From a virus: 25,806 nucleotides of DNA. This document shows positions 273 to 20,700 of this stretch, piece by piece. Position 1 is the first letter of the stretch. Each line of letters starts with the position of its first letter. Both the position numbers and the translations under genes were made by a program. The notes under the pieces were generated by a model. It searched no databases and was not told the origin of the DNA. It was given only the letters and a program-made list of their open reading frames with translations. The DNA lies in the IMG/VR virus record IMGVR_UViG_3300018424_007150, positions 1 to 25,806 of that record. One strand, 5' to 3'.

Positions 273-338
273 CCCCCCCTAGCTAAAGGGGACCCAAAGA
301 GCTAATCTATAAAGTCTTGCATTCGCGTCCGTACTATC

Positions 339-800
339 ATGTTCGTTGAAAAACTTAGGATCCCTATTTCAGAAATTTTTTTGGGGGAAAATTTTCTCGT
401 ATACCTTTTCGAGGAACCCCAAATCGCCCATTCCAAGATTATCCGAGCTTGCATCGCAGATTTCCTAGAGGGGAGATTGCACTGCAAATCGCCTGCCACG
501 GTGCATTGGAGTAAATCCGACACTGCCGACTACGTGGCAATTGCGGTAGGATCCATGCCAATTGGCATAGATATTGAGGTTATGCGTGACCGCCCATTTG
601 AAAAAATTTCCCGCAGATTTTTTAGCCCCTCAGAGATCACCTCTGACAAAGAAAAATTCTATGAGACCTGGACCAAGAAGGAAGCATGGATCAAGCGAGA
701 TAAGTTAAGCATTGCAACGAATATTGCAAAGCCCCCCAGCGGCACTATAATTAGTCTGAGAGACATTCCACGACACTTGAAGGGAGCCGTTGCTTTATGA
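339..800 (+). CDS. Compact Sfp/HetI-type 4'-phosphopantetheinyl transferase
   Basis: Enzymes of this family move the 4'-phosphopantetheine arm from CoA to a serine of an acyl, peptidyl or aryl carrier protein, using Mg2+. The 153-aa product shows the family signature in order: a degenerate SHS-like site (WSKSD, residues 57-61), GIDIE at 76-80 with the expected metal ligands D78 and E80, a FFSPSE segment at 94-99, and WTKKEAWIK at 111-119 with catalytic E115 and K119. The end (GAVAL) resembles the final strand of the family. The usual length is about 220-240 residues; here the N-terminal half and the part after motif 3 are shortened, so this is a minimal version. The SHS-site His is Lys (K59). 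No Shine-Dalgarno is visible at the ATG. The stop overlaps the next start (ATGA). The target carrier protein is not in the window. Confidence 0.85.
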   Translation: MFVEKLRIPISEIFLGENFLVYLFEEPQIAHSKIIRACIADFLEGRLHCKSPATVHWSKSDTADYVAIAVGSMPIGIDIEVMRDRPFEKISRRFFSPSEITSDKEKFYETWTKKEAWIKRDKLSIATNIAKPPSGTIISLRDIPRHLKGAVAL

Positions 801-1009
801 TCAATCTTCATCAGAAGTACAATCATTATCTCAATACAAACAAACTTCTAGATCATGATGACATTCACGAGACTGTGAGGAGTTATGGTTGGACTGATGA
901 CGGGAAAGATCTGACGGGATATTACGTCATTACGGAAAACTGGGTCATGCATTTCGATCTATCAGAAAAATTCATTAAAAAGGAGAGACTTAAAAGTGGA
1001 GTTAGATGA
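797..1009 (+). CDS. Hypothetical protein, 70 aa, coupled to the PPTase gene
   Basis: Unrecognised. The start overlaps the PPTase stop in an ATGA arrangement, so translation is probably coupled and the two proteins are likely made together. The product is soluble and rich in His, Tyr, Asn and Trp, with a central GWTDDGKDLTGYYVITENW stretch and a basic C-terminal tail (KFIKKERLKSGVR). It lacks the DSL-type serine motif of an acyl carrier protein, so it is not an obvious PPTase substrate. It does not continue the PPTase fold, which argues against a frameshifted PPTase C-terminus. The 3' end overlaps the next gene by 14 bases. Confidence 0.7.
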   Translation: MINLHQKYNHYLNTNKLLDHDDIHETVRSYGWTDDGKDLTGYYVITENWVMHFDLSEKFIKKERLKSGVR

Positions 1010-1230: not shown

Positions 1231-1884
1231 ATGGCACAGTTATCTAAGTATACTTTTAATGATGCTACGATAGGCGTCGCTTTCAGCGATACTATCACAA
1301 TCATCCTAGACCCCTGCCCGCCTCCTACAGGACCCTTAGAGGTCCTTGTAGACGTGACTATGACAGCGGTATCCCCTGCACTTCCCACTGGTATTCTTCC
1401 TGGTCTCGATCCTGGTTACCCGAATACTGGTGACATTGTTTATATTCCAACAGCTACGCCATCAACAAGTCTGACGATCTCGATGATTGGTACGTTAAAT
1501 GAGACTTACTTTGATGAGCGTGAATGGGAATACCGTGATGATACGACTGGAAAGAGTTACCACACTCCTGTTACTGAGTTAACAAGTTCTACTAGTGATG
1601 GTGGACGAATCTATACAGTCAACAAGAACAATGTGCAACCAGATGCTTATACAACTGGCGGCGAATATGAGACAGACATCCCAAACCCCGTTGATACTCT
1701 GATTCGCTATAAGCCTGATTTTAGAGCATCTAGAACAGTTACTTACACATATACGATCAGAACCATCTGTGCAGGTGTTCCAACTACATATGTGTATGAT
1801 GTAACTCAGAATATTTTGAATAATTGGGATCTCGGAAGAGATAAAATGCAAGACATCATCGACAATAAAGTTAGATATACCTGA
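1231..1884 (+). CDS. Putative virion protein of unknown function, 217 aa
   Basis: No family is recognised. The protein begins MAQLSKYTF and has no signal peptide or membrane helix. It is rich in Thr, Pro, Ile, Val and Tyr, with a Pro cluster at about 28-35 (DPCPPPTGP) and many alternating beta-type segments, for example VTYTYTIRTI near residue 180. It ends in a charged helix (GRDKMQDIIDNKVRY). This composition is usual for a beta-rich tail structural protein. It is translated from GAAGG ten bases upstream, and its TGA overlaps the ATG of the PAAR gene (TGATG). Coupling to a spike-tip gene and location ahead of gp25 make a tail-tip or baseplate-hub role the best guess. This is inference from context only. 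Confidence 0.8.
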   Translation: MAQLSKYTFNDATIGVAFSDTITIILDPCPPPTGPLEVLVDVTMTAVSPALPTGILPGLDPGYPNTGDIVYIPTATPSTSLTISMIGTLNETYFDEREWEYRDDTTGKSYHTPVTELTSSTSDGGRIYTVNKNNVQPDAYTTGGEYETDIPNPVDTLIRYKPDFRASRTVTYTYTIRTICAGVPTTYVYDVTQNILNNWDLGRDKMQDIIDNKVRYT

Positions 1885-2201
1885 TGGCAAAGACTACTCC
1901 AGCAGTTTTGGACGCTTACAGCACAGGAGAAGGGTGTTTTCCCCCCACACAACTGGTTCAAGCGTCTCCAAATGTCTATGCAGGCGGTAAAAACGTCGGT
2001 AGATTAAACGATCAGTATGCTCCACACACATGTGGGAGCACAACGCACGCTGGAACTCAGCGTGCAATCGTCTCTGGATCAGAAAAAGTCTATGTCAACG
2101 GTCTAAAATGTGGAAAATTGGGTTCTGACATCGGTGATGGGGACAAAGTTGGCAATCATGGACTCCCAGAAGGAGCTAAAAAAGTTTACATTGGCGGTTG
2201 A
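1884..2201 (+). CDS. PAAR-domain tail spike tip protein (T4 gp5.4-like)
   Basis: PAAR proteins form a small metal-bound cone that caps the central spike of contractile tails and sharpens it for membrane piercing. The 105-aa product has the family rhythm: PNVYAGGKNVGRLNDQY (29-45), then H48-x-C50, then GSEKVYVNGLKCGKLGSD (65-82). Likely metal ligands are among C18, H48, C50, H55, C76 and H92. The whole chain is this one domain, the usual size for a stand-alone tip. It is coupled to the upstream 217-aa gene by TGATG and lies upstream of gp25, which fits a tail-tip/baseplate cluster. A promoter and inverted repeat begin exactly at its stop codon. Confidence 0.88.
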   Translation: MAKTTPAVLDAYSTGEGCFPPTQLVQASPNVYAGGKNVGRLNDQYAPHTCGSTTHAGTQRAIVSGSEKVYVNGLKCGKLGSDIGDGDKVGNHGLPEGAKKVYIGG

Positions 2202-2698: not shown

Positions 2699-3088
2699 AT
2701 GGCGTTTATCTCAAAGTCCTTTAGGGACTTTAGCCTAACTTTTGAAAAAAATCCAGTGACTAACGATGTTTTGGCGCTTAAGAATGAAAAAGCGATCAAA
2801 GAGTCAGTAAAAAACATCGTTAGATATAATTTTTATGAGAAACCATTTTTACCACAGTTCGGTGGGAATATTATTGCACAGCTTTTTGAAAATTACACAT
2901 CTGGATTAAGTTCCGAACTTGAAGATAGCATCCAAAATGCTATCACCAACTATGAACCCAGAGTTGTTTGCTATGAAGTCGTTGTAGACTTTGAAGAAGA
3001 CCGTAATGAGTTGTCTGCAAAAATTAGTTATATTATTCTCGGTCAACAACCGAAAGTTGATTCCATAGATTTAGTATTAAAACCATAA
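2699..3088 (+). CDS. 25: Baseplate wedge subunit gp25
   Basis: In T4, gp25 belongs to the core bundle of each baseplate wedge with gp6 and gp7 and acts as the template for sheath assembly. The 129-aa product is almost the same length as T4 gp25 (132) and ends in the typical alpha/beta domain. It carries the family's EPR motif at residues 86-88 (NYEPRV), preceded by the helix segment SELEDSIQNAI and followed by VVDFEEDRNELSAKISYII. The N-terminus (AFISKSFRDFSLTF) has the usual form. Its TAA overlaps the gp6 ATG (TAATG), so the two are co-translated, in keeping with their physical contact in the wedge. A late promoter candidate lies 20 bases upstream. Confidence 0.94.
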   Translation: MAFISKSFRDFSLTFEKNPVTNDVLALKNEKAIKESVKNIVRYNFYEKPFLPQFGGNIIAQLFENYTSGLSSELEDSIQNAITNYEPRVVCYEVVVDFEEDRNELSAKISYIILGQQPKVDSIDLVLKP

Positions 3089-4946: not shown

Positions 4947-7900
4947 ATGCCTACATCTTCTTGGAAAGTTGGTTCGTGGACTACACCATCAACTCCCGTA
5001 ACTGTTCCACCAGTTCCGTCGGAGGTTAGTCCTGAGTCTAAATCTCAGATTTCAGACCGCGTATTTTCTCAGTTCCCCTCTTTTGTAAGAGAGGACTATC
5101 TAGCTTTCATTGATTTTGTAAAGGCTTACTATAAATCGCAAGAATTAAAGGGAAATCCAACGGATATCATCCAAAACTGGGATGATTACTATAATGTTGA
5201 CAGATATGCTTCCCTGGTCAAAGAGACCACTCTGATTTCTTCTCTTTCTGACTCTGCATCTGCAATTGACGTTCAGAGTACGAAGGATTTTCCCCAAGAA
5301 GGTTTAATTTTAGTAGATAATGAAATCATCTACTATAATGGCAAAGGTGCGACTACCTTTGAGAATTGCGTAAGAGGATTCTCTGGCGTAACCTCTGTTG
5401 GAACAACCGCAGAATTTAATTTTAGTGACACTGTTGCATCTGCACATGCAATTGGGTCTACAGTTGTCAATTTAAACAACATATTCCCACTTTACATTTT
5501 AGAAAAGTTTAAAGAGCAGTTTTTAGCAATTTATCCAAAGGATTTTTACGAAACGGTAGAGCAAAACGTTGTCGTAAAGAGAATTAAGGACTTTTATGCT
5601 TCTAAGGGAACAACTAGATCCTTCCAATTCATCCTTAGGACCATTTTCGGCGTCGAATCTGAAATTAAGTATCCAAGAGACAGGATTTTCAAACCATCTG
5701 ACGCATATTACGTTTCTAGAGAAGTTATCAGAGCGAAAAAACTCTCTGGGAACCCATTAGAGTTGGTTGGGCAAGTTTTATACCAGCAAGACGATTCAAC
5801 AGACTCAAATGTCAATTTTGCAAGAATTTATGTAAAGAGTGTTGTTGAAGTTTACACCGACGAAGGTATTGTTTACGAAATTGACGTAGATACCAATAAT
5901 TCCGAAGGAACTTTTGTAACTCCATACAAAACGCTTCTTTCCTATGGATTGGGTGACAATGTTCTGACTGATACGATTGTAACCGTTGATTCTACGATTG
6001 GTTGGCCAGAGCAAAATGGTAGATTCCGTATTGAAGATGAAATTATTCAATATTCGGAAAAAACAGTAACTCAGTTTCTTGGATGCACTAGAGCGAGAGA
6101 TAATACTTCCCCAGCAAGTCATATTGCTGGTCAATCAGTAATCGCAGCGTTCAAAGTATATGGATACTCAAACATAGATGGTTCAGAGATTACCATTTCC
6201 ATGTTTGGTGGTACAAGAGGAATCGAACTCAATTCTGGTGGTAAGTATTACTTGCCAGACAGCAAAATTACCACTCCAGTATCTCCTGGTTTTGATAGTA
6301 TTGATTCCGTTTGGGATTCTTTCATTTATAATGTTAGAAGAGCTTTCCGTGGAACTTCGATTACTCTTGGATCCCCAAATGCAAATGGCAGTGTCGTTGC
6401 TACAGTAACTACAGTAGAAGATCACAATTTAGTTCGTGACGACAAAGTAAAAATCCTGAATTGCCCAGAGGATATCTACAACTCTGAATTTAGTGTAATT
6501 GGTATTGGATCCAGCAAAACGTTCAATATTTTAATCCCACAAACTCCACAACAAGGGGTTAGTGTTGACTTTATTGCAACTAGGGAGTTCTCGTTTGGTA
6601 AGAGTGATTATAATAGCATTAATTCAAGTATTTCAAAGTTTACTTCTGATATTCAGAATACGTACAGATCTGATGATAATATCATTGTAGCCAGTAGTGG
6701 AATTCCTTCTCATAAAATTGGTCCCTTTGGTCCTAATGATTTGGTTCCAGGCAACCAAAGATATCTCAAGAGAATTCCTAGAGAACCACAAACTAAGAGC
6801 ACAAAACAGTCTACGCCAATCGGGCAAATTGGTATTGGTGTAAACGGTGTCCCACTCTTCTCATATAAAGGGGAAGAAACTAAAAAGTTTGGTGGTCTTC
6901 TTGATATTGAACAAATAAATGCTGGTGATGGTTATGATATTACAAACCCACCTCTGGTTGAGTTTGAGGCAGATTATCAACTTGACAGAACATATCCAGC
7001 TGGATCTAGAGTAAAATGGAATGGAAACAGATACATTTCTCTTGACGCTGGATTAAGTTCCCCAGATGTATACCCAACTCATACTTCTGGTATTGTTTTG
7101 CTTGGAAATATTCGTTGGCAGTTTGAAGGAACTTCTGCAGAAGCTTCTGTTGATATTGATGGTAGAGTCATTAGTATTAACGTAACTAATGGAGGATCTG
7201 GATATACCTCCGAACCAATTGTAGCTATTATTGGCGGTGGAGCAACTCCAACCAATTCTGCTGCTGCAACTGCAACCATCACGAATGGTGTAGTTACCAA
7301 TATTAACGTTACCTTCTCTGGTTCTGGATATACTTCAGTTCCAACGATTTCTATTACAGGTGGAGGTGGATCTGGTGCAACCGCTATCGCAGTTGTACGT
7401 GGACCAATCAAAGAGGTACATGTCACTAATCCAGGGTCTCAATATACTGTTGAACCAAACCTGACTCTTGTTTCTGGCAATGGCGCTGTAGCATACCCAT
7501 CCATTCTTAATGGTAAGATTGAAAGTATCATTGTAACCTTCGGTGGACAAAGATATTATGGTCCTCCCGATGTGGTTATTGTTGGTGATGGTGTTGGCGC
7601 AACTGCATATGCTAATGTAGATCTTGTAAGAAATATTGTTACTGACATTGTAGTTACTAACAAGGGTATTGGATATAGTGCAGGTAAAACTGAGATCTAT
7701 ATTGTATATCCTGGAAGTGGAGCACAGTTCCAAACAAAATTAACAGAATTTACATATAACGAAGCTGCAAACGCAGCAGAAATGGGAGTAAACCCAAATA
7801 CCTTTGTTCCAAGAAGAACATTTGACCATGCAAATGGAGCATCATTCCAAGGAACAAACTATTTGATTTATGGTGGTGAATATGGTCACATGTTCAACCC

Positions 7901-10900
7901 CAAAAACTTAAGATTCGTTCTTCAGGACAACATTAGCGACTCCTTTTCTGAATTAAGTCCAACTAAGCACTCTCCAATTATTGGATGGGCGTATGATGGA
8001 CATCCCATCTATGGTCCATATGGATTCAAGGATGCAGAGAACAAGAGTCCATTTAACGAATATAAAGAATTAGTTTGTAGTTATCGAATTAAGAGTTCCA
8101 GAGTATCTCTTGTTGATGGTCTGACAGATCCCCTTGGAACTTTCATTGAAGACTATGAATATGTTGAAGGTCTTGGTGATCTTGATGAATATAATGGAAG
8201 ATTCTGTGTAACACCAGAATTTCCAAATGGAACTTATGCATATTTCTGTTCCATCGACGGTGTAACAGGAAATCCAAAATTCCCATACTTTATTGGTCCA
8301 GAGTTTTACTCTCAAGCAAATGAAGTTAACTGGAATGGTAATGGTCTCCAAAAGAACTTCACTGAAGATGCAATTCGCTATAAAGGTCCATTTATCAATG
8401 TTGACAACTTAACAGTAAAGAGAAAGCAACTTGAAGATATTGAATTCTTCTATATTGCGTTAGAGGACACTACGACTATTATTACATTAGAAACTGGCGA
8501 GTTTATTCAGTTAGATGAAGATGGAATTGGTTACTTTGCATTCTATCCATTAATTAAGGGCAGTAAAGCAGATTCTCTCTTTGTCTCTTCAACTAACAAA
8601 TATTCCTCCAATGGAATTGATCAATATTTCATTGAGGGAGGTGGAACTGGATATAAGGTAAACGATAGGCTAGTATTTGACGAAACCAATACTGGTGGAT
8701 CTGGTTTAAGTGGAGTCATTTCTGCAGTAGAAGGCGTCCCAACATCTACATTAAATTATACTGTTGATGAAGATGATGTTACCACCGCAACAATAACCAC
8801 CACTCAAAGTCACTATGTAAAGCAGGGAGATTTAGTTACAGTCTCCTTAGGAAACAATGACTATGAAAGAACTTTCAATGTCAAGGTAATTAATAATAAG
8901 TACAACTTCAATTACTTCAATTTACAAAGTGCCAAATTAATGGCAGAGTGGACCACTGCGACTTCTTATGATCAAGGAGATCTTGTTTTTAATGGAGTAA
9001 ACGTCTATAGAGCAAAAGCAGCTGGAACCTCTGGTGCATCTGCCCCAACTCATACCAGTGGAACTGTAATCGATGGAATTGGTGGAGTTGAGTGGGAATA
9101 TCAGAGAGTAAGAACCGATGGAAATCTATACCAGGGTGGTTGGGCTTCTATCACTGGTGGATCTAACTATTTGAATGGAACTTATACCGATGTTCCACTG
9201 ACAACCAACGGTAATGGAAATGGTGGTAGAGCTACTATTGTCGTTAGCGGTGGAGCAGTAACCACAGTAACTATTACCAGTGTTGGGTATGGATATGAAA
9301 TTGGAGATACTATTTCTGCCACTAACTTAAACCTTGGAAATAATTTAACTCCTTCCGCTGGATCTGGATTCACAATCACTCTCACAGAAGTAGAGAAGGA
9401 AATTGTGTTTAGATCCAATTCTTCTCATTATCTTAGAGTTGGTGATACAGTCAATATCAGTGGCATTAATCCATCCGCTTATGATAAAGCAGATTATTCT
9501 GTTGTTAGAATTGATAGCAATAGAAGATTTGTATGTAAGAGAAATTTTGCCACGGTTGTGGCTGCAATTGTCACCACTGCTGAGGTTTACGTTAAGGAAC
9601 CACAGTTCCATTTTATTAATGGTCACAAATATAAATTTGATGTAACTGATTCTAGCAATAGTGGAAAGAGACTAACTTTCACTAAAGATCAGGAAAATAC
9701 CGATATATTCAGCTATAAAAATATCTTTGATAGTGTCAATGATCCAATTACAGGAGATCAAGAATCCATTACTATTAGAATTGTGGATCTTTCCAGTGTT
9801 TTCTATTATTTTGATGTCAATGGAACTATTTCTGGATCATACTTCACTATTATCAATGATCCTGTTGTTGGAACCAATACAGTAACGGCAACTACAAATA
9901 CAAGCATTAGTTATCAAATTAATTTAGAACCAGAATCTAATTACACAACAGCAAATAAAATTTCTTACATCACTAACTCCATTTACGCTAAGGGTGGAAT
10001 TGGTAATATTACTATCGGTGATAATGGTAGAAATTATTCTTCCATTCCTGCTCTTGTTGGTTCTACAAGATCGGGTTCTGGTGCAACTGCAGTTGCTACT
10101 ATTGCTGGTCCCATTTCTTCGGTTTCTATATCCAACCCTGGTTCTGGTTATAATTCAGCATCTCTACCAACGGCAGTTGTTAGTATGCCAGATTTCGTAG
10201 ATTTAACTCTCACTGGAGTTCTCGGATCTTTCGTTCCAGATGAAATTGTCACATCACAAACTTCTGTAGGTACGCAAACTGCAAGGGGTAAGGTTATTTC
10301 CTGGACACCAGATACATCAACTTTAAGACTAAAACCACTTCAAAACACCACCACTGGTGCAGCAAACAAAGGTTATATCATGTTTACTAGTGGAAATTCC
10401 AATACAAATACAGTATATTCTTCAGATTCTCAAGCAAGCATTAGTGCTGTTTCGGGAACTCAAGCTACTGTAGCTGCTGTAATTCCTGCATCGGGTCCCA
10501 ATGTTGGAACTCTGGAAAGTGTAACTATTACTGGAGTTGGATCTAATTATAGAACAGCACCTTCGATTATCCTCGACGATCCATACTACGGATCTGTAAA
10601 TTCTGTTAATCTAACCAGTCAGAATAGCGGAGCATACACTACAGCACAAACAACTTGGACTGGAGTTGCTCAGAAGAGCGTTGCTCCTACTGGCGGTATT
10701 AATGCAACCTTTACTGTTGTTGTTAACATTGCAACAAATAACATTGATAGTGTAACTCCAGAGAACGGTGGTAGCACATATGCTCTCGGTGACATCATCA
10801 CTATCTCTGGTGCCTCTGTGGGCGCTGTAGACGGCACAGACGACTTTACGGTGACGGTTAATGGATTATCCCATGCAAACCCAGCCACGACGGTTACAAA

Positions 10901-13900
10901 GATCAATGGTGCAATTGATTCAGTAACAGTAACCAATAGTGGATCTGGTTATCTATCCTCTCCTGATGTTGATGTTAGTGGTGGCAATGGAATCAATGCG
11001 ATTCTTAACGCTGCAATTGTCAATCAAGGTGTAACTAGTATTTCAATTCAAGATGGCGGAGAGCAATTTGAAACTCCCCCTGTAATTAATATTTTACAGA
11101 GAACTGGAACTGGAGCATCTATTCTACTCAAGTCCAGCAACCTCGGAGAAATCGTCAAGATTGGTGGTGACAATATCACATACAATTATAGTCATGATAG
11201 AACTCTAAAACCAGAGTTAAACACAACATATAACTTACAACTCATTAGAACCCAAATTATTAATTACCTTGATGTTATTGATGGTGGTGCCAACTTTGTT
11301 GCTAAACCAACGATTGTTCTCGAAGGAAGTAGTGGATCTAATTTTGTTCTGAATCCAATCATCCAAAACGAAGTAATTCAAGAAGTAGAGGTGATTAATC
11401 CAGGTAGAGGATTCCTTTCTGCTCCAACAGTAAAAGCAAAAATTAGTCATAACTTTGTTGCTCTTCAGTCCAACAGTACAATCAACTTTGCATATGACGC
11501 AAAGATTCCAACTGGCACACAAGTAACTCTTAGACAGGTATATGGAACTCTTCCACAACCACTCCAAACTAATGTCGTTTACTATGCCATTGAAGATACT
11601 ATTGCAAATGGATTAGGAAACAATCAAATTAGATTAGCTACTAGTCTCGCAAACGCTAATGCTGGAACTTTCATTGCCTTTACTACTCCACCAACTTTAG
11701 GAAACAATGGATTAGCCACATTTGTGTTAGACACGACTGATTTGGGTGATAATATCATTGCATATATGAAACCAGGAGAATTTGCTGTTGGGGAAATTCT
11801 TTATCAAGGTGCATCTAGGGCATCTTATACCGCTCGCGGTATCGTTAAGAATTGGGATCCTAAAGGTAGAGTTGTTAGTGTTGAAATCTTTGATGGTGAG
11901 TTTAAAATTGGCGAACCTGTATTTGGTGGAGAAACTGCTGCATTTGGTCAAATCCATGCATTTGACAGAGCAGATGCGGTCTTTGAAGTGTCGCCTATCA
12001 GTATTTCTGGTAACACTTGGGAAAGAACTACTGGTTTCTTGGATATTAATGAGCAGAGATTATATGATAGTAATAGATTCCAAGAATTTTCTTATGAGAT
12101 TTCTTCCTCTATTAATATTAGTGAATGGAAAAATCCTGTAAAATTTGCAGCACACCCAGCTGGATTCAAAGTATTTGGATCTCAAATTGTAGAGACTGCA
12201 ACCTTCAAATCATTTAGACCAAGACCAGTTAGAGATTATGTAACTAATGACCTTTATAACTGGTGGATTCCTGGAAATCCCCCACAAACCCTACAATCCT
12301 TCAATGGTTTAACTATATTCACACCAAAACCATCTGCACAAAACACTGGTAAACTTTCCACTATTACTAATTTTGCTCTTGGTAAACCAGATTACACAGC
12401 AGCAGTTCCAACAGAAGTTCTTTTGTTTGGTAGGCAGTTGCTTGATGTTCAAAAAATTCTGACATGTATCGTATATAAAATTGATAATGTAAACACCAGA
12501 TCTATCGCTTTTGATGCTGGATCTGCTAGCGTTGTTGATACTGCGACAGACAGACTCACTTTAACCAATCATGGATTCGTAGATAACCAAAGAGTCGTCT
12601 ATGATGCTGGTGGAGATAGGTTCTTAGATGCTAGAGATCTCATTGTTGCAAACATCGATTACATCACAGAAGAGGTAATTGGATATCTGGAAGCAAATTA
12701 TCCATCTCTGACTGATGGTACAAAACCAGACTACGATAGATCCATTTGCGCTAGGGACACTAGACTTGTTCTGGCTGCTTGGGCAAATGACCTTCGTTAC
12801 GGTGGTAACTCCTTCACTGTTTCTGCACTTGAGTCTTATGTTGGACAAACAGTATTAGTTGGCGATAGATATGGTGACGCCAGAGAACTTCTGAGAGCAA
12901 ATAAAGAGTTTATTGCTGAGGAAGCAGTTGGTCGCATGTTAGACGACCCCATTGTTGGTATTTCTGCTGGATTTGCTGGTATTCCTGGTGGGGATCAAAA
13001 TTGTATTGATGATATTATCGATATTATTGAGGTCATTGCATACAACGTTGCATATGGCGGAAATAGTGAGGTGTATGATGCAGCGAATCTTTATGTAACA
13101 GGGTCTCATGTTCAAGGTGAAGAAGATCAAACAAGAAAAGCATTTGAGATCGCATTGGAGCTCTGTGAGGATGTAATTCAAAACTATCCAATTACAGCTC
13201 TCTATACCCAAAAGACTCAGTTCATCGATAACAGCATTTCAACAGATCCTATTGGTTTTATTGCTGATAGAAACGGTGATGCATATAATCTTCTGCAATC
13301 CAACAAAACCTTCATTGCAAATGAGGCAGTTGAGCAATATCTAATTGCCAATCCATCATTTACCGTCCCAACTGGTAACCAAAACTGTATCGATGATGTT
13401 ATTGATGTTATTGATGCGGTATCGAAGAACGTTGGATATGGTGGAAATAATCATACCTACGATGCTGCTTCCTACTATGTTGGAACAAGTCATATTGACA
13501 ATGAAGAGGCAGAAACTATTGCAATCATGAATCTCGCAAGAGATATGTGCCAAAAGGCAATAAACAATGAAGTAATTACTGTACAGGGATCTCATGGATT
13601 AACCCAGACCACTGACAATACAATTACCGTTGATCTTGGTGGTTGTGCAGCTATTAAGTCTACAATTTCCACTCTCTTTGCTATTGTCACCACTGCTATC
13701 AATACAGATAGCATGGCACATGCAACTAGAACTGGTGGCGGGGGATATGTTAACTCCTGCCAGAATGTTGTTTCTTCGATGACAACTCTCTTCGGAATTT
13801 TAGATCAAGCGGTTGGAACAACTGGAAATCCAGGAAATCTTAATGGAATTACCAGAACAACACCAGCAAACGCAATTCTGCATATTGGTGGAGAAGAAGC

Positions 13901-16193
13901 AGAGACTATTGCTGCATACAACAAAGCAAGAGATCTTGCCATTCTTGCAATTGACAACAATCTTCCAATTGGTACGTATACTTCAATTGTTCCTGTTTCT
14001 GATCCATCTATTACAACTGTTTCAGGTGGATGTACAAATGTGGTTAGTGCAATCACAACATTGGCACAAATCCTTACTGATGGTATTGATAATCCAGGAT
14101 CTATTCCAAATAAGGACTTTGGATTCTATCCAAACGTAAGAACTGGTGATCCTATTGGTGGACTTTCTGGAAATACTGCATATTACATCAGTGTCATCGA
14201 CGCTGATACAATTGAGCTTTTAGATGCTCCAGGTGGAAGTGTTGTTGACATTACTGCTCTTGGAACTGGAAACGCTCACCAATTAACTCTATCCGTCGAT
14301 GGAATTAACAATGAATTCAAACTCAGAAAGAATTCTGTAGATATTTCTACCGAAATTGGAAAGACTGCACAAAAGAGTCAATTGATTGTTTCGATCAATG
14401 GAATTATCCAAAATCCTGCAGGATTCAGTTTTGCAAATGATATCCTCACATTCTCGGAGGCACCTTTAGATGCTTCAGAGATGCTTATCATGTACTTTGA
14501 TAAGGCATCCTACAATAATGACTTTGTTCTTGATACTTTCGGTGATGGAATCAAAGACTTTGATACTACTGATGGTTTGATTGCTGGTGCTGGATATACT
14601 GATGGAGTATACAATGCCGAACCACTTACCAATAAGAGAGGAAGTGGATCTGGAGCAACTGCAAACATCTCTGTGGTCGGCGGAGAGGTTGTATCGATTA
14701 GTATTGTTGATGGTGGATCTGGATACACCAATAACGATATTGTAAGTGCAACTTTAGCTGGGTCCCCAACACAAGAATTCCAAGTTGAAGTAAATGATGT
14801 CACTTTTGATGGAGTTGACACCACATTTACCGCTGAAGTTGGTGGAACACCATACAGTCTGCCTGCTAGTGATAACTTCTTACTGTTCTTGAACAGTACA
14901 CTGCAAGTTAAAGGTACGGATGATTCTTATCTTTATACTGGTAGCAGTATTACCTTCAATGAAGCTCCATTGGGCAACATGGACTTCTATTGCTTCTACT
15001 TTGGTAAGTTAAATCTTCTTGATGATTTATCTCCATTCTTCGACAGCAATAAGAAGACATTCATCATTAAAGAGAACAGCAATCCTTTCTCCATCGAATC
15101 TGATGACCCAACTGTAGATGCATCTGGAAACCTCCTCATTTTCATCAATGGAGTATATCAGGAGCCTGGAGTTGCATATAACCTCAGAGGATCTCTTCTT
15201 GAATTCACAGAAGCACCTAGGTCTGGATCTGTTTGTGTTCTTTATTGTTATCTTGGATCTAATGATGATGTTCTTGTAGAAGAAACATTCAATAGTATTG
15301 ATCCTGGCGATATTGTTAATGTTCAAAGTGAAGGAAGCGAAAGATTGCTTGCTAGCGTAAGTAGTTCAAATACAATTGATACTTATGAATACGTTGGTTT
15401 GAAACCAAATGTAGCATCCTTCAGTGCTGTTATTAGTGGCGGAAGAGTTGTAGCAGTGACTATTGTAGATGCTGGAAGTAATTATGAAGTTCCCCCATAT
15501 TTGGTATTCACTAGTGGTGGAGGAGAAGGTGCATTTGCAGAAACTACCATTGATCCAAATACAGGATCCGTAACTGGAATTATCAACTTAGTTGGTGGAA
15601 ATGGATATACATCTGCTCCCGATATTGTTCCATGCCATCCAGTATCCATTGAGAGGGCACAGAGAGATAGAATTGTTTCCAATAGCGTAGCTCTTGCAAA
15701 TACATATCTTTCTGCTTCTATCACAGACACAGATACAACGATTACTGCTGAAAACGTACATTGGAATAGCAACCAACAAATCGGATTCTCTGATGATGGA
15801 GAAATCTTAATTCAAGTCTATAACGGTTCTGCTTGGACCGTTGAGAGAGTCCTTTATGGATCCAGAGATACTGTTGCAAATACTTTCACGGTTGCAACTA
15901 ACGGTAGGGGATATGCTGGAACTGGTCCATCTACGGGGGTTGGACTTGCAAATACAATTGTAACTGGAACTTACAGTTCTTCTGGAACTGCATGTACAGT
16001 AACTACCTCTGGAAATCACAATCTTGTCACTGGAATGAGTATGTATCTCAAGCATACTTCTGGAGATGGTTTTGATGGAAGTTACACAGTAACAGTCACA
16101 AGCGCCACAGAGTTTACTGTGGAGTATCCATTCTCTAGAACTACATCTGGCAATATTTCCCTTCTCCCAGAGATTCGTTTTAGATCCTTATAA
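4947..16193 (+). CDS. Giant 3748-aa baseplate structural protein (gene 7 position, YHYH-type domain)
   Basis: A mosaic virion protein of roughly 0.4 MDa between gp6 and gp8, where T4 has gene 7. It begins with a baseplate-type N-terminus: PSFVREDYLAFIDFVKAYY (44-62), then KDFYASKGTTRSFQFIL (214-230). Two DNEIIYY/DEIIQY modules lie near 107-144 and 340-395. GSGY-type beta repeats recur near 653, 735-920, 1402-1458, 1682-1745, 1850-2165, 3232-3272 and 3496-3566. Carbohydrate-binding-like W/Y modules lie at 676-725 and 1333-1388. A YHYH-type domain spans about 950-1120, with YDGHPIYGPYG at 1016-1026. A largely helical insertion (2558-3067) splits a beta domain. Three fibre-like 'NG-x-Q...EAP' modules occupy 3117-3438. 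The reading frame is intact. The likely role is a wedge scaffold with surface-exposed binding modules. Equivalence to gp7 is from position only, as T4 gp7 is about 1030 aa. Confidence 0.88.
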   Translation: MPTSSWKVGSWTTPSTPVTVPPVPSEVSPESKSQISDRVFSQFPSFVREDYLAFIDFVKAYYKSQELKGNPTDIIQNWDDYYNVDRYASLVKETTLISSLSDSASAIDVQSTKDFPQEGLILVDNEIIYYNGKGATTFENCVRGFSGVTSVGTTAEFNFSDTVASAHAIGSTVVNLNNIFPLYILEKFKEQFLAIYPKDFYETVEQNVVVKRIKDFYASKGTTRSFQFILRTIFGVESEIKYPRDRIFKPSDAYYVSREVIRAKKLSGNPLELVGQVLYQQDDSTDSNVNFARIYVKSVVEVYTDEGIVYEIDVDTNNSEGTFVTPYKTLLSYGLGDNVLTDTIVTVDSTIGWPEQNGRFRIEDEIIQYSEKTVTQFLGCTRARDNTSPASHIAGQSVIAAFKVYGYSNIDGSEITISMFGGTRGIELNSGGKYYLPDSKITTPVSPGFDSIDSVWDSFIYNVRRAFRGTSITLGSPNANGSVVATVTTVEDHNLVRDDKVKILNCPEDIYNSEFSVIGIGSSKTFNILIPQTPQQGVSVDFIATREFSFGKSDYNSINSSISKFTSDIQNTYRSDDNIIVASSGIPSHKIGPFGPNDLVPGNQRYLKRIPREPQTKSTKQSTPIGQIGIGVNGVPLFSYKGEETKKFGGLLDIEQINAGDGYDITNPPLVEFEADYQLDRTYPAGSRVKWNGNRYISLDAGLSSPDVYPTHTSGIVLLGNIRWQFEGTSAEASVDIDGRVISINVTNGGSGYTSEPIVAIIGGGATPTNSAAATATITNGVVTNINVTFSGSGYTSVPTISITGGGGSGATAIAVVRGPIKEVHVTNPGSQYTVEPNLTLVSGNGAVAYPSILNGKIESIIVTFGGQRYYGPPDVVIVGDGVGATAYANVDLVRNIVTDIVVTNKGIGYSAGKTEIYIVYPGSGAQFQTKLTEFTYNEAANAAEMGVNPNTFVPRRTFDHANGASFQGTNYLIYGGEYGHMFNPKNLRFVLQDNISDSFSELSPTKHSPIIGWAYDGHPIYGPYGFKDAENKSPFNEYKELVCSYRIKSSRVSLVDGLTDPLGTFIEDYEYVEGLGDLDEYNGRFCVTPEFPNGTYAYFCSIDGVTGNPKFPYFIGPEFYSQANEVNWNGNGLQKNFTEDAIRYKGPFINVDNLTVKRKQLEDIEFFYIALEDTTTIITLETGEFIQLDEDGIGYFAFYPLIKGSKADSLFVSSTNKYSSNGIDQYFIEGGGTGYKVNDRLVFDETNTGGSGLSGVISAVEGVPTSTLNYTVDEDDVTTATITTTQSHYVKQGDLVTVSLGNNDYERTFNVKVINNKYNFNYFNLQSAKLMAEWTTATSYDQGDLVFNGVNVYRAKAAGTSGASAPTHTSGTVIDGIGGVEWEYQRVRTDGNLYQGGWASITGGSNYLNGTYTDVPLTTNGNGNGGRATIVVSGGAVTTVTITSVGYGYEIGDTISATNLNLGNNLTPSAGSGFTITLTEVEKEIVFRSNSSHYLRVGDTVNISGINPSAYDKADYSVVRIDSNRRFVCKRNFATVVAAIVTTAEVYVKEPQFHFINGHKYKFDVTDSSNSGKRLTFTKDQENTDIFSYKNIFDSVNDPITGDQESITIRIVDLSSVFYYFDVNGTISGSYFTIINDPVVGTNTVTATTNTSISYQINLEPESNYTTANKISYITNSIYAKGGIGNITIGDNGRNYSSIPALVGSTRSGSGATAVATIAGPISSVSISNPGSGYNSASLPTAVVSMPDFVDLTLTGVLGSFVPDEIVTSQTSVGTQTARGKVISWTPDTSTLRLKPLQNTTTGAANKGYIMFTSGNSNTNTVYSSDSQASISAVSGTQATVAAVIPASGPNVGTLESVTITGVGSNYRTAPSIILDDPYYGSVNSVNLTSQNSGAYTTAQTTWTGVAQKSVAPTGGINATFTVVVNIATNNIDSVTPENGGSTYALGDIITISGASVGAVDGTDDFTVTVNGLSHANPATTVTKINGAIDSVTVTNSGSGYLSSPDVDVSGGNGINAILNAAIVNQGVTSISIQDGGEQFETPPVINILQRTGTGASILLKSSNLGEIVKIGGDNITYNYSHDRTLKPELNTTYNLQLIRTQIINYLDVIDGGANFVAKPTIVLEGSSGSNFVLNPIIQNEVIQEVEVINPGRGFLSAPTVKAKISHNFVALQSNSTINFAYDAKIPTGTQVTLRQVYGTLPQPLQTNVVYYAIEDTIANGLGNNQIRLATSLANANAGTFIAFTTPPTLGNNGLATFVLDTTDLGDNIIAYMKPGEFAVGEILYQGASRASYTARGIVKNWDPKGRVVSVEIFDGEFKIGEPVFGGETAAFGQIHAFDRADAVFEVSPISISGNTWERTTGFLDINEQRLYDSNRFQEFSYEISSSINISEWKNPVKFAAHPAGFKVFGSQIVETATFKSFRPRPVRDYVTNDLYNWWIPGNPPQTLQSFNGLTIFTPKPSAQNTGKLSTITNFALGKPDYTAAVPTEVLLFGRQLLDVQKILTCIVYKIDNVNTRSIAFDAGSASVVDTATDRLTLTNHGFVDNQRVVYDAGGDRFLDARDLIVANIDYITEEVIGYLEANYPSLTDGTKPDYDRSICARDTRLVLAAWANDLRYGGNSFTVSALESYVGQTVLVGDRYGDARELLRANKEFIAEEAVGRMLDDPIVGISAGFAGIPGGDQNCIDDIIDIIEVIAYNVAYGGNSEVYDAANLYVTGSHVQGEEDQTRKAFEIALELCEDVIQNYPITALYTQKTQFIDNSISTDPIGFIADRNGDAYNLLQSNKTFIANEAVEQYLIANPSFTVPTGNQNCIDDVIDVIDAVSKNVGYGGNNHTYDAASYYVGTSHIDNEEAETIAIMNLARDMCQKAINNEVITVQGSHGLTQTTDNTITVDLGGCAAIKSTISTLFAIVTTAINTDSMAHATRTGGGGYVNSCQNVVSSMTTLFGILDQAVGTTGNPGNLNGITRTTPANAILHIGGEEAETIAAYNKARDLAILAIDNNLPIGTYTSIVPVSDPSITTVSGGCTNVVSAITTLAQILTDGIDNPGSIPNKDFGFYPNVRTGDPIGGLSGNTAYYISVIDADTIELLDAPGGSVVDITALGTGNAHQLTLSVDGINNEFKLRKNSVDISTEIGKTAQKSQLIVSINGIIQNPAGFSFANDILTFSEAPLDASEMLIMYFDKASYNNDFVLDTFGDGIKDFDTTDGLIAGAGYTDGVYNAEPLTNKRGSGSGATANISVVGGEVVSISIVDGGSGYTNNDIVSATLAGSPTQEFQVEVNDVTFDGVDTTFTAEVGGTPYSLPASDNFLLFLNSTLQVKGTDDSYLYTGSSITFNEAPLGNMDFYCFYFGKLNLLDDLSPFFDSNKKTFIIKENSNPFSIESDDPTVDASGNLLIFINGVYQEPGVAYNLRGSLLEFTEAPRSGSVCVLYCYLGSNDDVLVEETFNSIDPGDIVNVQSEGSERLLASVSSSNTIDTYEYVGLKPNVASFSAVISGGRVVAVTIVDAGSNYEVPPYLVFTSGGGEGAFAETTIDPNTGSVTGIINLVGGNGYTSAPDIVPCHPVSIERAQRDRIVSNSVALANTYLSASITDTDTTITAENVHWNSNQQIGFSDDGEILIQVYNGSAWTVERVLYGSRDTVANTFTVATNGRGYAGTGPSTGVGLANTIVTGTYSSSGTACTVTTSGNHNLVTGMSMYLKHTSGDGFDGSYTVTVTSATEFTVEYPFSRTTSGNISLLPEIRFRSL

Positions 16194-17727: not shown

Positions 17728-20700
17728 ATGGCACAGAATACTAACCTGAACATCGCCCCTTATTTTGACGACTTTGACTCAGATAAGGGGTTTCTAAAAG
17801 TTCTTTTTAAGCCAGGATATCCTGTTCAAGCTAGAGAACTGACGACTCTGCAGAGTATCCTGCAGAATCAGATTGATTCGTTTGGGCAAGGTGTATACAA
17901 GGAAGGTTCTATGGTGGTTCCTGGTGGAATCACACTAAACAATGAACTGCCAATTGTCATCATTCAGAATAACTATTTGAACCTGGATGTTGAATTATAT
18001 AGAACTGCTCTTGATGGAAAAGTTATTAAAGGATCCACATCTGGAGTCAGAGCACGGGTCAATTTCTCCATCTCCGCTGCTACTTCGGAGAGAGGTAATA
18101 TTTCTTTCTACGTCACATACTTACAAAAAGCATCTGACAATACAACAACCACTTTCACTAACGGTGAAGTATTGACATGCGAAGAGGATGTAACCTATCA
18201 GTCAACTACCATTTCTGCTGGTACACCTTTAGCACAACTTTTAAATTCTAACGCCAACTCCAAAGGATCTACTGCTAATATCAGTGCTGGTGTTTATTTT
18301 GTTAGAGGGTATTTTGTACCAGTTCTTCAACAAACTGTTATTCTTGATCAGTACGGAACGACCCCAAGTTACAAAGTAGGTCTGAAGGTAGAAGAGAGAC
18401 TCATCACTGCAGATGAGGATGATACTCTCTATGACAATGCAATTGGTAGTACCAACTTCTCTGCTCCTGGTGCAGATAGATTTAAAATTAATCTTACTTT
18501 AGTCAAGAAAAACGTCACAGATCCTAATGCTGCTGACTTTATCGAACTTCTTAGAACAGATGTAGGTAAGGTACAGAAGAAAGTTGTTAGAAGTGATCTT
18601 GGTTTCATCAATGAAGTTCTTGCAAATAGAACAAGAGAAGAGTCTGGGGATTATTACGTTAAGAAGTTCTCTGTAGATGTAAGAGAGAATCTTGACAATG
18701 GTTTCAACAATGGTGTTTTTGCTGCTGGTGCAGTAACCGCAGATGAAAATACTGCATCGGAAGATAATGTAGCAGTTCAACTTTCTTCTGGTGTTGCGTA
18801 TATTTCTGGTTTCAGAACAGAAAGACAATCCACATCGTATAAGGATGTAGAAAAACCAAGAACTTTTGTCGGTCAAGATAACCAAGCAATTACCGCTTCT
18901 TTCGGTAATTACATCTATCTTGATAATGCATATCAAGCTCCAACTTTATATGAAGAGATTGATCTTAGGGATGAAAGAGTAACCACACCTGGAACTCCTG
19001 TTGGCACCATTATTGGAAAAACAAGAGTATATGGATTCTCATATGAAGATGGTGATAGAGATACATCCAGCACTCTTTATAGATTAAACGTTGCGGATAC
19101 AACACTCTATACAAAAGTAACCACAAACAGCGTCACTTGGACTGCTGGTGATTATCTTGTAGGTGCTACTTCTGGTGCAACTGGATTTGTTGCAACTGGT
19201 TCGGGAACAACAGGTTATCTCTATGGAGTGAATGGAACCTTCGCTGCTGGTGGAGAGGTTCTGCAGAAGAATGGATCTACATTTGCAACTGCTACCGCTG
19301 CATATGCATATAGCTTTACTGATGTAAAGTCCTTAACTGGTGGTGGTTTTACTGGAGACACTGTTCTTGATGTCAAGGTTGCCCTTCCTGCTGGTGGTCC
19401 AATCCTCTCTGGTGTTGCTGGAGGAAACGCTACCGTAACCGCAACTTTGTCCAACTTTGTGTCCCAACTTAGAATTAATGATATCATTGAATTTTCAAAC
19501 AATAACGAAGCACACAAAGCAAAAATTACTGCTATTACTGATAATTATAACTTTAATATCACTCGTTTGGGATCTACCACTCTTGCTAATGGTTCAATTA
19601 CTAGCTCCATTGTAAGAACTAGACCAGAAATCAAAGAAACTAATCGTAGAACTCTTCTGTCTACCATCGGTCAGACAGCAATCAAAAATACTAATAAGAA
19701 CAATACAATTGCTCCTTCTGGATTCTTTAGAAAGAGCTACACTGGAATTTCAGTATCTTCTGGTTCCTTCAGTTTGACCGCTGGTACAGGTCTTCAGTTC
19801 AGAGATGCAACTGACGCCGACGACTTTATGATTGTAGTTACCGCTGGTGGCGGTACAATGCCAACGGGAACTATCGTTACTTATGGTGGATCATTAACCT
19901 TCAGTGCTGCCTCTGGGGCACAGTCTTCGGTTACCGTAAGTTCTTTAGACAATGCAGTAACCGCCGTTGAAGTTATTGCTACCGTATTCCAAAGTGATAG
20001 ATCTGCGAAGGTCAAGACAACAGAAAGGATGAAGATCCTTAAGATTGATGATACAAATGGATCTGCAGTAAACGGTCTCACCCAATCCTTAAATGGATAT
20101 GGTTATAGAGTTGATGATGCAGCAATTTCTCTTGGGTGTGCTGACGTATTCAAGATTAAAGCAATCTACGAATCTAATGATGATCAAGATCCAATTCTTC
20201 CAAGTTTCCAGTACACTAACTTGACTGGAACTCTTCAAATTGATGAAATCATCACTGGTACTACTTCTGGATCTAGAGCTAGAGTCGTTTCGCTTGACAG
20301 CAACTACGTCTACTTTATTCCAGTAGAAGATGACAAGTTTAGCGATGGGGAGAATATCACTGGTCCAAATTCGACACTGAAAATCGTAACTGGTTCTGTC
20401 GTCAATGGATCTAAGAACATCACAAATAGCTATGATCTGGATAATGGTCAGAGAGATCAGTATTACGATTATTCTAGAATCGTAAGAAAGCAAGGATATA
20501 CCGCACCAACTCATAGAGTTTTTGTTATCTTTGATAGATTCTTAACCACCAGTGGAACTGGATTCTATACCGTTGATTCTTATCCAGATTCCGAGTATAA
20601 GGAGATTCCTTCTTATAATGGAACTGCACTTAGAGATACCATTGACTATAGACCAATTGTCCCAGCAAACCTTAGTGGATCTGGTTCTAGAACATCTCCA

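Follow-up and report, generated by a model that had tools for sequence, protein, structure and literature searches.

The window analysed here, a 25.8-kb virus record from a T4-like cyanophage, begins 338 bp before an open reading frame (ORF) that reads as a phosphopantetheinyl transferase (PPTase) and stands beside tail genes. This locus raises the question of whether the product is an active enzyme and, if so, which carrier protein it would modify and why a phage would bring its own copy. An answer could show how viruses that infect the most numerous photosynthetic cells interfere with lipid metabolism.

The transferase ORF and its surroundings

Judged by its sequence, the ORF (153 aa, ATG start) is a genuine and unusually small member of the PPTase family. 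The initial annotation had proposed an Sfp-type enzyme and named a profile search and a structure prediction as checks, both of which agree with it: Pfam ACPS (PF01648) matched at 34.8 bits (E 1.8e-8; cut-off 25), phrog_23098 matched at E 4.7e-28, profile comparison with the PDB recovered Sfp (E 2e-10), and the predicted fold is closest to Sfp. The nearest NCBIfam models were AusB (NF047349; 44.6 bits against an equivalog cut-off of 225), HetI (NF042922; 19.7 bits against 370), and AcpT, all of them well under their cut-offs, so the protein corresponds to no established equivalog. Its shortness, also remarked on initially, is common to the whole phage family (about 148-167 aa).

Among 31 aligned phage PPTases, the invariant positions include G76, D78, I79, E80, W111, K114, E115, A116, and K119, and the catalytic residues are unchanged down to about 36-40% identity. 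D78, E80, E115, and K119 lie where the initial annotation had placed them and, as far as the alignment can tell, are equivalent to Sfp D107, E109, E151, and K155; the Mg ligands that mark the family (D and E of GxDxE, E of WxxKE) and the following Lys are all present in the aligned sequence. Values of pN/pS of 0.22-0.38 in close homologues, and up to 0.51 in more distant ones, indicate that the gene is under purifying selection. An AlphaFold2 model built on the 31-sequence alignment (mean pLDDT 88.4, pTM 0.83, below 50 at residues 1-9 only) has strong PDB matches that are, every one, Sfp-type PPTases, the best solved match being the Sfp-CoA-PCP complex 4mrt (Z 12.0, 129 of 153 residues, rmsd 3.0). 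Model residues 19-153 correspond to Sfp 1-206, and a strand-helix-hairpin N-terminal lobe (residues 11-71) stands before the GIDIE half; the prediction is of a two-lobed Sfp fold in one chain, though a trimmed one. An AcpS-type identity (trimeric, ~120 aa, a single half-domain) was rejected given this N-terminal lobe and the Sfp-type character of the best solved structures.

Table 1 Features of the window at and around the PPTase gene
Feature	Positions	Strand	Basis
Conserved non-coding element AATCTATAAAGTCTTGC, ahead of the PPTase gene	304..320	+	Precedes many PPTase homologues and other cyanophage genes
Compact Sfp-type 4'-phosphopantetheinyl transferase	339..800	+	Pfam, PHROGs, NCBIfam, Sfp match, AlphaFold2; T4-GC 500 / phrog_23098 family
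W-[SN]-K-S-D site, residues 57-61, in place of cellular [SN]xSH	507..521	+	D61 in 31/31 phages; K59 in 29/31
GIDIE motif; D78 and E80 aligned to Sfp D107 and E109	564..578	+	G76, D78, I79, E80 invariant in 31 phage proteins; Sfp alignment
WTKKEAWIK motif; W111, K114, E115, K119 aligned to Sfp W147, K150, E151, K155	669..695	+	Invariant in 31 phage proteins; Sfp alignment
70-aa gene, ATG overlapping the PPTase stop; syntenic neighbour	797..1009	+	Overlap, phrog_6312 match, synteny
PAAR-motif protein, conserved tail context	1884..2201	+	phrog_281 (E 1.7e-18); Pfam PAAR just under cut-off
Baseplate wedge gp25, first of the gp25-gp6-gp7-gp8 block	2699..3088	+	Pfam GPW_gp25, 46.5 bits

The PPTase and the 70-aa gene (Table 1) share an ATGA at 797-800 and are likely carried on the same transcript. 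The cyanophage origin and the position beside tail genes, both read from the window initially, hold up. In P-HM1 and P-HM2 the gene stands beside the same tail block. Positions 1231-1884 of the window encode a 217-aa protein with a weak PHROG match and homologues at 62-77% in G003, G005, G007, and G009; P-HM1 has a different protein in this place, labelled 'putative RTX toxin' (T4-GC 504), with no Pfam match. A 3748-aa ORF (4947-16193) fills the position of gp7, the baseplate wedge initiator, takes up nearly half of the window, and has homologous ORFs in the corresponding position of related contigs.

The conserved element upstream of the gene extends over positions 280-330 (GGGACCC..CTAATCTATAAAGTCTTGC..TCGCG) around the core listed in Table 1, and in many relatives it likewise lies ahead of the PPTase. 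Its 17-nt core was found in 91 IMG/VR stretches, with a PPTase downstream in 37 of the 90 examined; many other copies precede a 62-aa gene ('MQKNPGENFTTVEVDPVTGEY..') and a 'MAKGFTVKAK' gene, frequently with TATAAAA some 20-25 nt upstream. The element has the appearance of a promoter or 5' leader shared among cyanophages. We rejected a classical TATAAATA late promoter as the one driving the PPTase, one-mismatch matches in the window being no more frequent than expected by chance, and a stem-loop at 236-281 was no more stable than its shuffles (z -0.81).

Linkage to a phage acyl carrier protein

Modification of a phage or host carrier-like protein had been among the options listed in the initial annotation, which missed the phage acyl carrier protein (ACP) itself, its locus falling outside the window. 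When whole records were searched with PF00550, carrier proteins turned up in P-HM1, P-HM2, MED4-213, and the IMG/VR contig G004, and then in a second IMG/VR contig, G006 (200 kb); the phage ACP scores were 22.4-38.1 bits, all above the cut-off of 20.8. The gene for this protein (T4-GC 457 / phrog_27464, about 155-177 aa, DSL motif intact) directly follows the gp5 hub/lysozyme genes, precedes cpeT-YadA-fibre, and stands 23-28 kb upstream of the PPTase. All five PPTase records that extend far enough upstream contain it; they stem from perhaps three lineages, three of the records being from one genus; the nine other mapped PPTase contigs end short of the ACP position, and its lack there is not read as absence. 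In P-HM2, a gene between the ACP and cpeT (19368-19865; L088:6369-6866) matches a 2OG-Fe(II) oxygenase profile just under its cut-off, as well as a PHROG named 'DNA endonuclease V', a name that may be wrong.

Two scans of viral contigs with the PPTase yielded 10 and then 70 loci, the second set containing the first, and a scan for the ACP yielded 160 relatives, of which 80 were kept. The DSL serine and a GC29 neighbour occur in 80/80 of these ACP loci, and gp5b lies nearby in 79/80. Two of the contigs, G026 at 77.6 kb and G027 at 87.2 kb, have unbroken synteny that starts at the ACP and takes in the 70-aa and 64-aa genes, PAAR, gp25, gp6, gp7, and gp8, yet no PPTase occurs in its slot or elsewhere on either contig, both being partial genomes. 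These natural empty slots rule out a strict two-way pairing: the PPTase is seen only with the ACP, the ACP is sometimes alone, and the dependence is one-way, which is the asymmetry expected if the ACP is the substrate. The ACP of the two contigs presumably relies on the host PPTase, or on one encoded in genome sequence that the contigs do not include.

We consider it probable that the product of the ORF is a small, active PPTase of the Sfp type whose task is to turn the phage ACP into holo-ACP. The enzyme would hold Mg2+ by D78, E80, and E115, act with the conserved lysine K119, and move 4'-phosphopantetheine from CoA onto the DSL serine of the ACP, which is encoded in the baseplate-hub/tail cluster, so as to form holo-ACP during infection. 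Points that weigh against this reading are the occurrence of the ACP without a PPTase in G026 and G027, the few lineages behind the five co-occurrences, and the loss of the CoA-binding histidine and of much of the N-lobe. Over 82 aa, the phage and Prochlorococcus ACPs share 48% identity, with still greater similarity around the DSL helix, so docking of the phage protein on host fatty-acid enzymes is plausible; given how close its recognition helix is to that of its host counterpart, these enzymes would presumably then acylate the holo form. The acylated ACP could serve the phage as an acyl donor or an acyl sink, and the roles that we considered for holo-ACP are acyl donor to a tail protein, acyl sink, and diversion of host fatty-acid synthesis. 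An enzyme of its own might be needed where an abundant phage ACP would outrun the host PPTase as host expression is displaced.

The PPTase might instead mainly modify the ACP of the host fatty-acid synthase and thereby maintain or increase lipid synthesis in infected cells. Sfp-type PPTases are often promiscuous, the recognition region around DSL is common to host and phage ACPs, and the carrier-protein search of one Prochlorococcus genome (G039, MIT 9201) gave a single match, an 80-aa ACP. Set against these points, 55 of 61 Prochlorococcus genomes have a PPTase of their own (~220 aa), and in records that cover the ACP locus the phage gene is seen only together with the phage ACP. Because of these two observations, a raised host fatty-acid or polyketide capacity, as suggested initially, is less likely, and we regard a host ACP as an unlikely main target. 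A second PPTase occurs in some Prochlorococcus genomes (G051, G070, G084), and in the Prochlorococcus SAG AG-449-J16 (L295) a PPTase is found close to a FabH-like gene and a reductase, an arrangement suggestive of a secondary-metabolite locus.

What is shared along with the PPTase-ACP pair is mainly the tail module: G006 retains the ACP, the PPTase, and the special tail/fibre genes. The glycine dehydrogenase, TauD, and two Asp hydroxylases, metabolic genes specific to P-HM1, were unmatched in G006 at E 1e-3, so a wider NRPS-like pathway built from the two Asp/Asn hydroxylases, TauD, and the dehydrogenase does not supply obligate partners. It is conceivable, though quite unlikely, that the phage operates a tail acyl-carrier system of its own, with a rebuilt CoA pocket, in which the acyl chain of the hub-cluster ACP is passed to a tail or fibre protein, or the holo form is built into one, giving a lipid-modified or ACP-containing virion.

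The histidine site and CoA recognition

The (S/N)xSH histidine, which is usual for Sfp-type enzymes and not strictly defining, is lost in the phage family. The column aligned to it holds Asp in 31/31 phage PPTases and His in 23/23 cyanobacterial hosts, and all aligned cellular PPTases from other genomes of the cyanobacterial phylum retain the His. The initial annotation had described a Lys at this place; the histidine is indeed gone in either register, and the placement of the Lys is uncertain, since gap-free profile and MAFFT alignments put D61, not K59, opposite the histidine. The register that sets K59 against His (W-S-K-S against W-S-H-S of RCC307) requires the next hairpin to be two residues longer; a point for it is that W57, rather than K59, would then fall where hosts have a hydrophobic residue. 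The model, with strands at 56-61 and 65-71 and a three-residue loop, is a better fit to the gap-free register.

In human PPT, His111, with Arg47 and Arg86, binds the CoA 3'-phosphate, as do Lys28 and Lys31 in Sfp (PMC2148441). Phage PPTases lack about 25-30 N-lobe residues in the region that carries these ligands in Sfp. With the His and much of the N-lobe missing, CoA recognition would have to be rebuilt and the use of CoA is not certain; K59 (K or R in 30/31) and R/K36 are candidates for such a rebuilt site. The same losses, of residues whose equivalents in human PPT (His111, Arg47) and Sfp (Lys28/Lys31) bind the 3'-phosphate (PMC2148441), could point to a changed pantetheine donor such as dephospho-CoA. 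We judge this distinctly improbable: the nearly invariant basic residues K59 and R/K36 could substitute, the exact register at the histidine site is uncertain, and human PPT already shows shifts of individual ligands. Hardly credible is a catalytically dead relative acting as a binding or tail-assembly protein, for although the gene is embedded beside tail genes and its product is shorter than every cellular PPTase compared here, the catalytic residues are all invariant across the divergence sampled, the gene is under purifying selection, and its carrier-protein partner has an intact serine.

Distribution and comparison with known systems

In INPHARED, where at least 434 Synechococcus-phage and 'Cyanophage' records carry gp6, credible phage PPTases and full-length relatives of the ACP are both confined to P-HM1, P-HM2, and MED4-213. 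Two further sets of PPTase matches were rejected: the 'Sfp' of Acinetobacter phage MD-2021a (CAKLQH020000017.1) sits in a bacterial chromosome among engA, secB, and grxC in a record that is apparently mislabelled, and matches in faecal 'Bacteriophage sp.' records are weak and unannotated. The initial annotation did not count the gene among the standard cyanophage ones; it is already present in the same three phages, is annotated as '4'-P-pantetheinyl transferase' (T4-GC 500) in P-HM1 and P-HM2, and was named by Sullivan et al. (2010), a single sentence of which lists T4-GC 500 as 'ACPS' together with the phage ACP. Our literature search found the cyanophage PPTase treated nowhere beyond that sentence, no test of the pair, and no biochemical or expression data for either protein. 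The pair was thus known beforehand by annotation and one sentence; the additions made here are the window lineage, the family-wide loss of the histidine, the trimming of the N-lobe, the one-way co-occurrence, and the empty-slot contigs. ACPs occur in many phages, and an activating enzyme accompanying an ACP of this kind was found only in Eurybiavirus among the annotated phages searched. The one-way pattern, the constant position of the ACP within the baseplate-hub cluster, and the loss of a usual CoA ligand from a compact PPTase make concrete tests possible.

The closest known systems are those of the Prochlorococcus phages P-HM1, P-HM2, and MED4-213 (genus Eurybiavirus), to which the gp6 of the window is also closest (70.5-71.6% identity, the highest to P-HM2). 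Their PPTases (PHM1_077, PHM2_076, and CPMG_00044) are like that of the window in protein family, length, and place upstream of PAAR-gp25-gp6-gp7, and we count the same partner, T4-GC 457, as a further likeness. On homology (38.4% identity to PHM1_077 over 87%, E 5e-25) and synteny, the window PPTase is assigned to the T4-GC 500 cyanophage PPTases; at only about 38% identity, it belongs to a lineage of its own, whose members in this analysis come from metagenomes. Sfp of Bacillus subtilis (PDB 1qr0, 4mrt) has the predicted fold, the Mg ligands, and the WxxKExxxK motif in common with it and differs in length (228 aa) and in having H90 and Lys28/Lys31 for the CoA 3'-phosphate, whereas the phage protein lacks the His and most of that N-lobe segment. 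The Prochlorococcus PPTase, which is HetI/Sfp-like, shares the superfamily and the D, E, E, and K residues, but it is about 65 aa longer, keeps SHC/SHS, and is only about 30% identical over 80 aa; with this identity and the different motif, a recent host-derived copy was rejected as the source of the phage gene. Short cellular PPTases (about 172-177 aa) from several small genomes of the cyanobacterial phylum, and the AusB model, have a DIE-M-[KR]-R-F-like signature and small size in common with the phage enzyme; the short cyanobacterial-phylum proteins are cellular, measure about 172 aa or more, and, unlike the phage PPTases, keep the histidine in every one aligned.
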